A program made the position numbers and the translations under genes. From Actinotalea alkalitolerans (GTDB taxonomy: Bacteria; Actinomycetota; Actinomycetes; Actinomycetales; Cellulomonadaceae): a DNA stretch of 64,000 nucleotides. The stretch lies in the NCBI RefSeq assembly GCF_023369855.1, contig NZ_JAMBPP010000011.1, forward strand, positions 1-64,000, in the 5' to 3' direction. This document shows positions 438 through 6,067 of the stretch, piece by piece. The number at the start of each line of letters is the position of its first letter. Positions within the stretch are counted from its first letter, which is position 1. Under the pieces are notes generated by a model that was not told the DNA's origin, ran no database searches, and worked only from the letters and a program-made list of their open reading frames with translations.

Positions 438-752
438 TCAGTCGGGGGGAGCCGCGGGAGGACCCTCGACGACCACGGTGGTCGCCCAGGCCTGCGGGCC
501 CGACGGTCCGGTCCGGTCTGCCGGCTGCTCCAGCGGGCAGGTGCCGACCAGCGTGTGGGACCGCATGCGTGCCCAGGCGGGGACGTCGTGCCGTGCCGCG
601 GGATCGGTCCACCACACGGTGACCACCGTCCCGGGGGTCGCTGCTCGTGCCGCTGCGGCCAGCCGGATCACCGGCAGAGGGCAGGCAAGACCGCGCGCAT
701 CGACCACGAGCGTCCGCTCCGGGGGTGGCTGGGCCTGCGGGGAGGTGCTCAC
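438..752 (-). CDS. TusA-like sulfurtransferase
   Basis: This 104-residue protein carries the TusA/SirA hallmark CPLP (Cys24-Pro-Leu-Pro27) inside VDARGLACPLPVIRLA. In this family the cysteine carries a persulfide passed on from a cysteine desulfurase to sulfur acceptors such as tRNA thiolation or cofactor pathways. The GTG start at 752 overlaps the stop of the upstream desulfurase homologue as GTGA, so the two are translationally coupled and probably work together. An N-terminal tail of about 14 residues and a C-terminal tail rich in Pro/Ala extend the usual 75-80 residue fold. The cysteine is intact although the upstream partner has lost its PLP lysine. The acceptor is unknown. Confidence 0.85.
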   Translation of the reverse strand: MSTSPQAQPPPERTLVVDARGLACPLPVIRLAAAARAATPGTVVTVWWTDPAARHDVPAWARMRSHTLVGTCPLEQPADRTGPSGPQAWATTVVVEGPPAAPPD

Positions 753-1921
753 AGGCCGGTGGCCCCGATCATCCGGCGGACCTCGGCCACGGCCTCGGGA
801 AGGTCGTGCAGGAACCGCTCGACGTCGTCGCGGACCGTCCCGCGGGGGAGGACGAGCCGGACGTTGCCGTGGGTGAGCGTCCCCATCGCGCCCAGGACGT
901 GGCTCGGCTCGAGGGTGCCCGAGGTGCAGGCGGAACCCGACCCGACCGCGTAGCCGCGCCGGTCGAGCTCGGTCAGCAGGGCCTCGCCGTCGACGTACAG
1001 GCAGCTGAACGTCACGATGTGGGGCAGCCGGTCGTCGGCGTGGCCGACGACCTCGACGTCGGGAACGGTGCGCGCGACGCTCGAGCGGACGAGGTCGACA
1101 AGGGCTCGTCGATCGGGGTCGGCACGCTCCCTGTCGGCCAGCACGGCTTGCAGGGCAGCGGCTGCGGCGAGCGCCGCGGGCACGCTCACGCCCCCGGGGA
1201 ACCACGGATCCTCGTCCTCGGGCCAGGCACGGACCGCCCGGACCCGCGAGCGGACGGCCAGCACGGCGACCCCGGCCGGCCCGCCCCAGTCGGCCGGGTC
1301 GGCAGCCAGCGCGTCCCACGTGTCCTGGACCGGGACGTGGCCCACGCTCGCCCCGGCGTCCACGACGAGCGGGACGCCGGCTGCGCGCGCGTGGCCGTAG
1401 GCCTCGCCGAGCGGTTGCAGCGTGCCGACCTCGCCGTTCGCGTGCTGCAGCGCGGCCAGGGCGACCCCGCGACGGGACACCGCCTCCTGCCACCTGTCCA
1501 GGTCGACCCTGCCCCACCGGTCCACCCCGACGGTGTCGACACCGTCGGGAAGCCCGGCTGTGCGCCGACCGGCCGGGGTCTCGTCGGCGACGAAGCGCGC
1601 GGCGGCGAGCACCGCCGAGCGCTCGACCGCGGACACCACCACGCGAGCGCCGATGCGCCGTCGGCCCCGTGAGATCGCCAGGACCGCAGCGTGCAGGCTC
1701 GCGGTGTGGTGGGCGGAGAGGTGCACCTCCTCGGTGCGACAACCCAGGGCACCCGCGAGCGACTCTCGTGCCCCGTCGAGGAGCAGGCGGGCTCGACGAC
1801 CCTCGGCGTGCAGACGGCGGGGATCGGCCCACCCCTCGTCGGTCGCAGCGTCGAAGGCCTGGCGGGCACGGGGGTGCAGGGGGGCCCTCCCGCCCGCATC
1901 GAGGTAGGTGCGTGCGCTCAC
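749..1921 (-). CDS. Class V aminotransferase-fold cysteine desulfurase homologue lacking the PLP lysine
   Basis: This 390-residue protein aligns end to end with NifS/IscS-type cysteine desulfurases: YLDAGGRAPLHP at the N-terminus, HANGEVGTLQP (160-170), VVDAGASVG (187-194) and the active-site loop SGSACTSGTLEPSHVL with Cys332. The segment that normally reads SAHKxxGPxG is AADPADWGGPAG (206-217), so the Schiff-base lysine position is Asp211 and the preceding His is Ala210. The PLP-stacking His of the VExH segment is Arg101 and the Gln of DAAQS is Ala191; Asp188 is kept. The frame is intact, so this looks like a pseudo-enzyme rather than decay. It overlaps the TusA-like gene by four bases. The GTG at 1921 puts the start at VSARTYLD; a GTG at 1930 is the alternative. 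Family membership is clear; catalysis is doubtful. Confidence 0.85.
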   Translation of the reverse strand: MSARTYLDAGGRAPLHPRARQAFDAATDEGWADPRRLHAEGRRARLLLDGARESLAGALGCRTEEVHLSAHHTASLHAAVLAISRGRRRIGARVVVSAVERSAVLAAARFVADETPAGRRTAGLPDGVDTVGVDRWGRVDLDRWQEAVSRRGVALAALQHANGEVGTLQPLGEAYGHARAAGVPLVVDAGASVGHVPVQDTWDALAADPADWGGPAGVAVLAVRSRVRAVRAWPEDEDPWFPGGVSVPAALAAAAALQAVLADRERADPDRRALVDLVRSSVARTVPDVEVVGHADDRLPHIVTFSCLYVDGEALLTELDRRGYAVGSGSACTSGTLEPSHVLGAMGTLTHGNVRLVLPRGTVRDDVERFLHDLPEAVAEVRRMIGATGL

Positions 1922-2172: not shown

Positions 2173-3048
2173 TTGGACGTGCAACACCCCCGCCGCCGCA
2201 CCACGGTGCGGCTGACCGCCCTGGTGGGCTCGGTCGCGCTGCTGGCGAGCGGATGCTCCGCCGAGGCACAGCGCGGCTACCTGCCCGGATACGAGGACGG
2301 CCCGGTCACCAACATGACCGAGCGCATCACGAGCCTGTGGACCGGCTCGTGGATCGCGGCCCTGCTGGTCGGCCTGATCACCTGGGGGCTCATCCTCTGG
2401 TGCGTCGTGGTGTACCGGAAGCGCCGGGACGACGAGACGCTCCCTGTGCAGATCCGGTACCACGTGCCGCTCGAGATCATGTACGTGATCCTCCCGATCC
2501 TGATGATCGGCGTGCTGTTCTTCTACACCGAGCGCGACATGTCCGCGATCGAGGACATCTCCGCCGAGCCCGACCTCACCGTGCAGGTGATCGGCAAGCA
2601 GTGGAGCTGGGACTTCAACTACGTCGACGACGACGTCTACGAGACCGGTGTCCATGTCGACGACATCGGGGTCGAGGGCGTCTCCGAGACGCTGCCCACC
2701 CTGTACCTGCCGGTCGACGAGCGGGTCGAGATCCAGCTCGAGGCGCGCGACGTCATCCACTCCTTCTGGGTCCCCGCCTTCCTGTACAAGAAGGACATGA
2801 TCCCCGGGCGCAGCAACGTCTTCCAGATCGTCCCGCTGCGTGAGGGGACCTATGCGGGCAAGTGCGCCGAGCTCTGCGGCGAGCACCACTCGGGCATGCT
2901 CTTCAACGTCACCGTCCTGCCCCGGGCCGAGTACGACGCGCAGATGGACCTGCTCCGCGAGCGTGGCCAGACCGGCCAGCTCGGCGTCGAGCTGAACCGG
3001 CTGCAGAGCCGCGGCGACGACCAGGCGATCCCCTCCGGAGAAGGTTGA
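2173..3048 (+). CDS. ctaC: Cytochrome c oxidase (aa3) subunit II
   Basis: CtaC receives electrons through its CuA centre in the aa3 oxidase of the bc1-aa3 supercomplex. The N-terminus has a lipoprotein signal with lipobox LASGC (Cys28). Two membrane helices follow (about 57-81 and 99-117). The periplasmic cupredoxin domain carries the CuA ligands His196, Cys231, Glu233, Cys235, His239 and Met242 in [18 protein letters not shown] (143-148) is the aromatic electron-entry patch. The start is a TTG at 2173; a GTG two codons later is possible. The length of 291 is normal for actinobacteria. The stop overlaps the ctaD start by one base, so ctaC-ctaD-ctaF form an operon. This is the M. tuberculosis Rv2200c position. 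Confidence 0.95.
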
Positions 3049-4871
3049 TGAGCACCCAGGCCGAGAAGATCCCGGGGCTCGCTCCCCGCCGCCAGACGTT
3101 GGGGCGGACGGTCATCAAGTGGGCGACGTCCACCGACCACAAGACCATCGGGTACATGTACCTGATCACCTCGTTCATCTTCTTCTGCATCGCAGGGCTG
3201 ATGGCGCTGGTGATCCGGGCCGAGCTCTTCGAGCCGGGTATCCAGTTCGTGCAGAGCAAGGAGCAGTACAACCAGCTCTTCACGATGCACGGCACGATCA
3301 TGCTGCTGCTGTTCGCCACCCCGCTCTTCGCAGGTTTCGCGAACGTGCTCATGCCGCTGCAGATCGGCGCGCCGGATGTCGCCTTCCCGCGGCTGAACAT
3401 GCTCGCCTACTGGCTCTACCTCTTCGGTGGCCTCATCGCCTGCGGTGGCTTCTTCACCCCCCAGGGTGCGGCGTCGTTCGGCTGGTTCGCCTACGCACCC
3501 CTGTCGAGCACCACCTTCTCACCAGGTCTCGGGGGAGATCTCTGGGTCTTCGGTCTGGCGATGACAGGGTTCGGCACCATCCTCGGTGCGGTCAACTTCA
3601 TCACGACGATCATCACCATGCGCGCCCCGGGCATGACGATGTTCAGGATGCCGATCTTCACCTGGAACACCCTGGTGACGAGCCTGCTCGTCCTGATGGC
3701 GTTCCCGCCGCTGGCCGCGGCGCTGTTCGCGCTGGGAGCCGATCGACGACTCGGCGCCCAGGTGTTCAACCCGGAGAACGGCGGAGCCATCCTCTGGCAG
3801 CACCTGTTCTGGTTCTTCGGGCACCCCGAGGTCTACATCATCGCCCTGCCGTTCTTCGGCATCGTCTCGGAGATCTTCCCGGTCTTCAGCCGCAAGCCGC
3901 TGTTCGGGTACAAGGGACTGGTCTACGCGACCATTGCGATCGCCGCTCTGTCGGTGACCGTGTGGGCCCACCACATGTACGTCACAGGGGCCGTGCTGCT
4001 CCCGTTCTTCGCCCTGACGACGATGCTCATCGCGGTCCCCACCGGTGTGAAGTTCTTCAACTGGATCGGGACGATGTGGCGCGGGAAGATCACCTACGAG
4101 ACCCCGATGCTGTGGTCGATCGGGTTCCTGGTGACGTTCCTGTTCGGTGGGTTGACGGGAGTGATCCTGGCGTCGCCGCCGCTCGACTTCCATGTCTCGG
4201 ACACCTATTTCGTGGTGGCCCACTTCCACTACGTCGTCTTCGGCACCGTGGTCTTCGCGATGTTCGCCGGCTTCTACTTCTGGTGGCCCAAGTTCACCGG
4301 GAAGATGCTCGACGAGCGACTGGGCAAGATCCACTTCTGGCTGCTGTTCTTCGGCTTCCACGGGACCTTCCTGATCCAGCACTGGCTGGGCGTGCAGGGG
4401 ATGCCGCGGCGCTATGCCGACTACATGCCCGAGGACGACTTCACGTGGATGAACCAGGTCTCGACGGTCTCCTCCGTGGTGCTCGCCGCCTCGACGCTGC
4501 CATTCCTGTGGAACGTCTTCGTGACCTGGCGCAACGCACCCAAGGTCGCGGTCGACGACCCGTGGGGCTACGGGAACTCGCTCGAGTGGGCGACCAGCTG
4601 CCCGCCGCCGCGGCACAACTTCACGTCGTTGCCGCGCATCCGCTCGGAACGTCCCGCCTTCGACCTCCATCACCCCGAGGTCGCGGCGATGGACCACGTC
4701 GAGCCGGACGCCGGGATCCTGGACTGGGAGGGCGACCGACGCGGTCAGCCCGAGCTCGCCCGCGAGCGTCTGGCCACCGGTGACGCAGAGCCGGAGCAGT
4801 CCTCTGCGACGATCGTCGACGACCCGCCCGCACCGCCGCAGGACGGCGAGCCCGAGGGAGACCAGCGATGA
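3048..4871 (+). CDS. ctaD: Cytochrome c oxidase (aa3) subunit I
   Basis: This is the catalytic subunit, a 12-helix membrane protein that reduces O2 at the heme a3-CuB centre. Metal ligands are visible: HGTIMLLLF carries a low-spin heme a His, GHPEVYI the CuB His and its cross-linked Tyr, AHHMYV the two other CuB histidines, and [10 protein letters not shown] the heme a3 and heme a histidines. At 607 residues it is longer than the 530-570 of many homologues because of an acidic, Pro/Glu-rich cytoplasmic tail after about residue 560. The ATG at 3048 shares one base with the ctaC stop, and its end overlaps ctaF by four bases. Confidence 0.97.
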
Positions 4872-5440: not shown

Positions 5441-6067
5441 TCACAGCGGGACGATGAGCCCGGCTGTCTGTGTCCGTGCCCGGGCGAAGCGCTCGGCCGC
5501 GTCGGCCCAGTTCACGATGTTCCACCAGGCCTTGATGTAGTCGGCCTTGACGTTGACGTAGTCGAGGTAGAAGGCGTGCTCCCACATGTCGAGCAGCACG
5601 ATCGGCACCAGGCCGAGAGGGATGTTCCCCTGCTGGTCGTAGAGCTGGACGATCACGAGCTTCTCGCCCAGCGAGTCCCAGGCCAGGATGGACCAGCCCG
5701 AGCCCTGGATGCCGGCGGCGTTGGCCGCGAAGTGCTTCTGGAAGCCGTCGAACGATCCGAAGAACTCGTCGATGGCCGCGCCGAGGTCGCCCGTGGGACG
5801 GTCTCCACCGTCGGGGGAGAGGTTCGCCCAGAAGGCGGTGTGGTTGATGTGCCCGCCGAGGTTGAACGCCAGGTTCTTCTCGAAGAGGTTCACCGCGTCG
5901 AACGTGCCCGTCTCGCGAGCCTCGGCCAGCTTCTCCAGTGCCGTGTTCGCGCCTGCGACGTACGCGGCGTGGTGCTTGTCGTGGTGCAGCTCCATGATGC
6001 GGCCGCTGATGTGCGGCTCGAGAGCGGTGTAGTCGTAGGGAAGGTCGGGCAGGGTGTAGTCAGCCAT
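5441..6067 (-). CDS. sodA: Superoxide dismutase (Mn/Fe family)
   Basis: This 208-residue enzyme dismutates superoxide. Metal ligands are His28 (in MELHHDKHH), His76 (GGHINH), Asp160 and His164 (DMWEHAFY). It has no signal peptide, so it is cytosolic by sequence. In the C-terminal domain [10 protein letters not shown] has Gln at the position where M. tuberculosis FeSOD has a His (YDHQTNFPLG). Gln there is the Mn-type arrangement, so Mn or cambialistic use is likely, but this is inference. A good RBS (AGGAG) lies 8 bases before the ATG. It sits convergently between ctaF and qcrB, inside the respiratory cluster. Confidence 0.96.

Follow-up and report, generated by a model that had tools for sequence, protein, structure and literature searches.

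A lysine-less, cysteine-retaining relative of IscS beside ctaC in Actinotalea alkalitolerans: probably a working non-catalytic protein

Lysine-less IscS-like proteins that keep the loop cysteine are a kind already known from archaea. The IscS of Archaeoglobus fulgidus (AfIscS, IscS 2; PDB 4eb5, 4eb7 and 4hvk, and 4r5f for the D199K mutant) naturally has an Asp at the PLP lysine and, according to excerpts of PMC7585200, is reportedly devoid of desulfurase activity, its loop Cys being a ligand to the [2Fe-2S] cluster on IscU. The same excerpts report that IscS1 of Methanosarcina acetivorans also lacks the catalytic lysine, and according to a figure legend of PMC9769115, the AfIscS complex 4EB5 contains PLP. 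In the E. coli IscS–TusA complex (PDB 3lvj), the Cys loop passes sulfur to TusA (excerpts of PMC2854127). E. coli IscS variants at H104, D180, Q183, K206 and C328 lose activity; K206A retains some PLP, with a very slow residual reaction suggested, and R354K is fully active (excerpts of PMC9978102). No description of the actinobacterial family reported here was found among the open-access literature matches listed, as judged from titles and abstract openings, and neither PMC10853773 nor PMC8300815 concerns it in the parts available.

The window, that is, the whole 64,000-nucleotide stretch analysed (positions 1 to 64,000 of contig NZ_JAMBPP010000011.1 of Actinotalea alkalitolerans), carries the features listed in Table 1. 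A frame check and alignment with E. coli IscS bore out the first-pass annotation of a full-length desulfurase-like frame that keeps Cys332 and Asp188: it begins with GTG and runs to its stop at 749. The overlapping TusA-like protein with its CPLP motif was likewise confirmed, the two frames sharing 4 nt and the smaller product, which has the CPxP signature, scoring 58.8 bits against Pfam TusA (4.8e-16; cut-off 28.6), although it remains under the cut-off of the NCBIfam TusA equivalog (36.3 versus 78 bits).

Table 1. Features of the ctaC-linked locus in the window
Feature	Position	Strand	Basis or remark
TusA-like sulfur carrier, 104 aa, CPLP	438..752	minus	Pfam TusA
Lysine-less NifS/IscS-like pseudo-desulfurase, 390 aa	749..1921	minus	Pfam, NCBIfam, AF2 model, Foldseek
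Mobile-loop motif SGSACTSG, residues 328-335, with Cys332	917..940	minus	family alignment and model
Former PLP-lysine segment ADPADW, residues 207-212	1286..1303	minus	aligned to IscS 202-207
ctaC, aa3 oxidase subunit II, divergent neighbour	2173..3048	plus	NCBIfam aa3_CtaC_Actin; start codon uncertain
ctaD (COX1)	3048..4871	plus	Pfam COX1 2.8e-164

The alignment also upheld the pocket residues that had been proposed, Arg101, Ala191, Ala210 and Asp211, at the sites of IscS H104, Q183, H205 and K206, and it extended the list by a change absent from that annotation, at the phosphate-site S203. Within ADPADW, D208, P209, A210 and D211 stand at S203, G204, H205 and K206. Thus, where an active desulfurase has its PLP-binding lysine there is Asp211, while the Cys on the mobile loop is present as Cys332, aligned to C328; Asp188 and Arg355 match D180 and R354. 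A shifted alignment placing a Lys in the pocket can be ruled out because the whole 390-aa protein is free of lysine. The 104-aa TusA-like protein has none either, and the absence of lysine from both may reflect composition or selection, for example against pupylation. Since the window protein has lost three of the five residues whose variants inactivate IscS, desulfuration is very unlikely.

The fold is that of a class V aminotransferase, as judged from the Pfam Aminotran_5 match (6.7e-22, above the cut-off). Scores against NCBIfam NifS (182.6 versus 530.75 bits) and IscS (101.8 versus 643.2 bits) lie under the cut-offs; this says little by itself, because lysine-bearing relatives from Streptomyces and Nocardioides miss them too. 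An AlphaFold2 model built with 26 family sequences reached a pLDDT of 87.5 and a pTM of 0.89, with values below 50 for residues 331-338 of the Cys loop. In Foldseek, the best 22 rows are all IscS or Nfs1 structures, AfIscS included (TM on the query 0.85-0.88), and the E. coli IscS–TusA complex ranks 24th. Sequence comparison and the predicted fold together show an IscS-type protein without the PLP lysine and the phosphate-site Ser, in which purifying selection has maintained the loop Cys and the equivalents of Asp180 and Arg354.

AfIscS is the nearest solved precedent. A family profile run against the PDB found it best (243 bits, versus 230 for other cysteine desulfurases and 214 for M. tuberculosis IscS), and the window protein shares its defining combination of an Asp at the PLP lysine and a retained loop Cys, as well as an Ala at the Gln183 site. 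AfIscS differs in being archaeal, in having IscU as partner and in keeping the stacking His and the Ser203 site. Moreover, it lacks the Arg354 equivalent in our alignment, whereas the actinobacterial lysine-less family keeps this Arg; consequently, the two are not one design. Descent from AfIscS is unsupported: in a 42-row quick tree without bootstrap, AfIscS falls in the IscS group (SH-aLRT 100) and the window protein in another (99), so that the lysine losses look convergent. M. acetivorans IscS1, also archaeal, can be likened to the window protein by description only. E. coli IscS has the same fold, and its TusA-contact site Asp52 is Asp or Glu in most members of the family; it differs in being an active PLP enzyme, and the actinobacterial proteins do not conserve its contacts Trp45, Glu49 and Arg220.

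The lysine-less state extends well beyond the window. A full-length orthologue occurs in 17 of 19 genomes of the genus, the remaining two having a fragment and only a NifS paralogue, respectively. Of 150 genomes searched in the family, 129 give a best match with E <=1e-45, and one genus (g9) seems to be without the gene. A search of 297 genomes of the order gave orthologue-level matches in 7 of 20 sampled families (f1, f5, f9, f12, f15, f17 and f18), and NifS-level matches or none in the others. All the orthologue loci fetched and read from the order, representing 111 distinct proteins, are without the lysine; named genera include Actinotalea, Cellulomonas, Promicromonospora, Krasilnikoviella, Cellulosimicrobium, Paraoerskovia, Demequina, Phycicoccus, Terrabacter and Knoellia. 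A sequencing error at 1288-1300 is excluded because orthologues across the order share the state. The question of whether the loss is clade-wide can thus be answered positively for this order, whereas most orthologues from other orders of the class (for example, Streptomyces, Kribbella, Nocardioides, Actinomadura and Microbispora) keep the lysine, mostly as SAHKWGG, together with VEHS and SGS(A/S)C. Six orthologues from outside the order are also lysine-less, reading AQAF (L153), AHMW (L154), PESF (L155), ARDW (L158 and L159) and SRTW (L277) where others read AHKW; these sequences suggest repeated loss within the Actinomycetes.

Residue counts were made on 232 loci, after exclusion of NifS paralogues, 21 phylum-level loci (L177-L197), the truncated L076 and eight repeats. 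They represent 216 distinct proteins, of which 117 lack the lysine and 99 bear it. Of the former, 117/117 have the loop Cys and the Arg354 equivalent and 116/117 the Asp180 equivalent; the Ser203 site is Asp in 100/117, the stacking His is retained in 23/117, and 87/117 have no lysine anywhere in the compared stretch, against a median of 3 in lysine-bearing proteins. In the latter, Cys, Asp, Arg, Ser and stacking His are each found in 99/99, and Gln183 in 74/99. Representatives were also counted (112 kept after removal of rows above 72% identity; 23 lysine-bearing rows outside the ctaC-linked family left out). The lysine-less ones retain D180, C328 and R354 in 50/50, S203 in 2/50, H104 in 10/50 and K206 in 0/50.

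The first-pass annotation had seen four linked losses in the pocket. All four sites are indeed changed in the window, but the idea of a single linked event is only partly true: the stacking His persists in part of the lysine-less clade, and Gln183 and H205 are absent in 14/35 and 6/35 of the lysine-bearing representatives. Loss of the Gln alone is therefore not diagnostic, given its retention in only 74 of the 99 proteins. The His before the PLP lysine is replaced by Ala or Arg in the lysine-bearing L141, L161, L181, L183, L184, L186, L187, L211 and L228, among others, so this residue can evidently go without loss of the lysine.

Median pairwise omega is 0.184 for 89 lysine-less pairs and 0.211 for 388 lysine-bearing pairs; these Nei-Gojobori estimates on GC-rich genes are useful only as a comparison, and they indicate purifying selection matching that on lysine-bearing relatives. 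The clade-wide state, the invariant Cys and the low omega thus lend good support to the earlier proposal of a selected pseudo-enzyme. Because relatives in seven families share the lysine loss and the kept Cys, the gene probably encodes a working, non-catalytic protein rather than being a broken gene. A quick tree of 112 rows places the order's lysine-less rows together with L155 and L277 in a single clade (50 rows, SH-aLRT 99). At least three changes of lysine state are needed on this tree and five on the 42-row tree with AfIscS, a rough count since L153, L154, L155, L158 and L277 shift between these quick trees, which are without bootstrap.

The gene neighbourhood links the family to terminal oxidase genes. 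The ctaC product of the window scores 333.1 bits against NCBIfam aa3_CtaC_Actin (cut-off 250), and a divergent ctaC lies at most 1 kb away in 80/80 named loci. Two of 40 fetched stretches are without ctaC, L102 and L105, both 7-kb stretches of one genome (G299) that has two lysine-less copies; L102 has a TusA-like neighbour devoid of CPxP, and its Cys motif reads CGCTCG. In other Actinomycetes, the lysine-bearing desulfurase occupies the same locus (divergent ctaC in 58/58) with tusA, separate or fused as in Streptomyces, and pfkB and erpA nearby. It differs by its lysine, stacking His and phosphate-site Ser (99/99 each) and is expected to be an active enzyme. On the facing strand, erpA, the gene of an Fe-S carrier, is no more than 600 nt away in 18/22 named lysine-less loci versus 1/58 lysine-bearing ones; in the latter it is found within the fetched stretch in 47/58, usually beyond a pfkB gene (present in 50/58). 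In L225, the erpA product passes the NCBIfam ErpA threshold. The erpA gene of the window's own genome lies at the end of contig C30; positions 1-330 of the window (minus strand) carry a transposase-like helix-turn-helix frame, the contig edge being just past tusA; an insertion element probably separates tusA from erpA, which fits the common gene order, broken. The cta genes are followed by an Fe/Mn superoxide dismutase (5441-6067, minus; Pfam Sod_Fe_N and Sod_Fe_C) and, further downstream, by cytochrome b-like (qcr) frames.

By analogy with AfIscS, we consider a retired desulfurase, reused independently as a cysteine-bearing docking protein for persulfide or Fe-S units, to be the leading interpretation, with a chance a little short of even. 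The lysine-less protein would be unable to desulfurate cysteine at a useful rate and would form the usual dimer of the desulfurase family. Cys332 would take a persulfide from an intact desulfurase, or serve as a thiol ligand, and the dimer would act as a docking platform from which partners receive sulfur or a nascent Fe-S unit. At loci that retain tusA, TusA would be one such partner; a more general one could be ErpA, an A-type Fe-S carrier whose gene is an immediate neighbour in most lysine-less relatives. Against an ErpA partnership, the nearness of erpA may be inherited gene order only. The genome also encodes SufS (512.8 bits versus a cut-off of 475.1) and a NifS-like paralogue with its lysine intact, directly upstream of mnmA; a passive carrier would therefore have a possible source of sulfur. 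A second gutted desulfurase–TusA-like pair is present in the same genome (G000:C31, ~186370-187280; L280, 954-1875, minus). Its NifS frame of 201 aa has lost, possibly through an assembly fault, the middle part with the PLP Asp, Gln and Lys and has kept the loop Cys, and the following TusA-like frame is without CPxP (26.9 bits versus 28.6 for Pfam). Genome G009 has a full-length relative with its Lys (L295).

A narrower role as a dedicated persulfide carrier, with Cys332 loaded by a different desulfurase and its sulfur passed on to TusA, is distinctly less probable. It draws on the 4-nt overlap, on the presence of tusA at 95/117 lysine-less loci, with CPxP in 94/95, and on desulfurase–TusA fusions in Streptomyces relatives and at one lysine-less locus, L081. 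However, no TusA-like frame was found within 900 nt downstream at 22/117 lysine-less loci, versus 2/98 lysine-bearing loci (one cut locus excluded; Fisher p 5e-5, with kinship not corrected for), and the loop Cys is kept at all 22. At 17 of these, erpA starts 21-191 nt past the gene, which leaves no space for a hidden tusA; at the other five, it is further off or was not found. On the tree, the presence of tusA changes at least 10 times in the 54 lysine-less rows, compared with 2 in 35. ctaC and erpA are thus steadier neighbours than tusA. Of the relay to TusA suggested in the first-pass annotation, the usual association with a CPxP-bearing TusA stands, and TusA is a likely partner where its gene is present; since the Cys persists where no tusA was found nearby, TusA cannot be the whole reason for the gene.

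Non-covalent binding of PLP, PLP-Cys or some other ligand, by which the protein would be a sensor or a slow enzyme, is unlikely. The nearly invariant Asp180 and Arg354 equivalents could mean that a small ligand is still bound, a point against a docking-only role, and PLP binding is conceivable because IscS K206A holds some PLP (excerpts of PMC9978102) and PLP is drawn in 4EB5 (legend in PMC9769115). The kept Arg need not mean catalysis, as R354K, in the same excerpts of PMC9978102, is fully active. On the other side, the Asp common at the Ser203 site and the scarcity of the stacking His should weaken phosphate and ring binding. Pure scaffolds or regulators are a common fate of pseudoenzymes, and intact NifS and SufS are at hand in the genome; still, a protein without thiol chemistry, such as a decoy of intact NifS or its partner in a heterodimer, would have no need of an invariant loop Cys, and we regard such a role as improbable. 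A decaying gene or sequencing artefact, for which nothing was found, is refuted by the clade-wide state, low omega and conserved synteny, and its probability is close to nil.

The suggestion of a candidate new module has to be tempered, the solved Lys-to-Asp change of AfIscS being a precedent. What is new is a bacterial family found across seven families of one order, repeated loss of the lysine, and the occurrence of an orthologue with the lysine at this locus in sister orders. More speculatively, and with a probability that we would still call low, Actinomycetes may possess mostly lysine-free pseudo-desulfurases of more than one origin, independent of the archaeal ones, that discarded PLP chemistry, kept only the Cys loop and serve a cytochrome bc-aa3-linked, thiol-based hand-over of sulfur or Fe-S units to ErpA, and to TusA where present.

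Desulfurases are viewed primarily as PLP enzymes and only secondarily as persulfide platforms, two roles that evolution seems to have split here. Labelling such genes as cysteine desulfurases would mislead. Sister orders, whose orthologue at this locus bears the lysine, provide a natural control, and the role proposed for AfIscS, as a cysteine ligand rather than a sulfur donor, becomes testable in easily grown bacteria.
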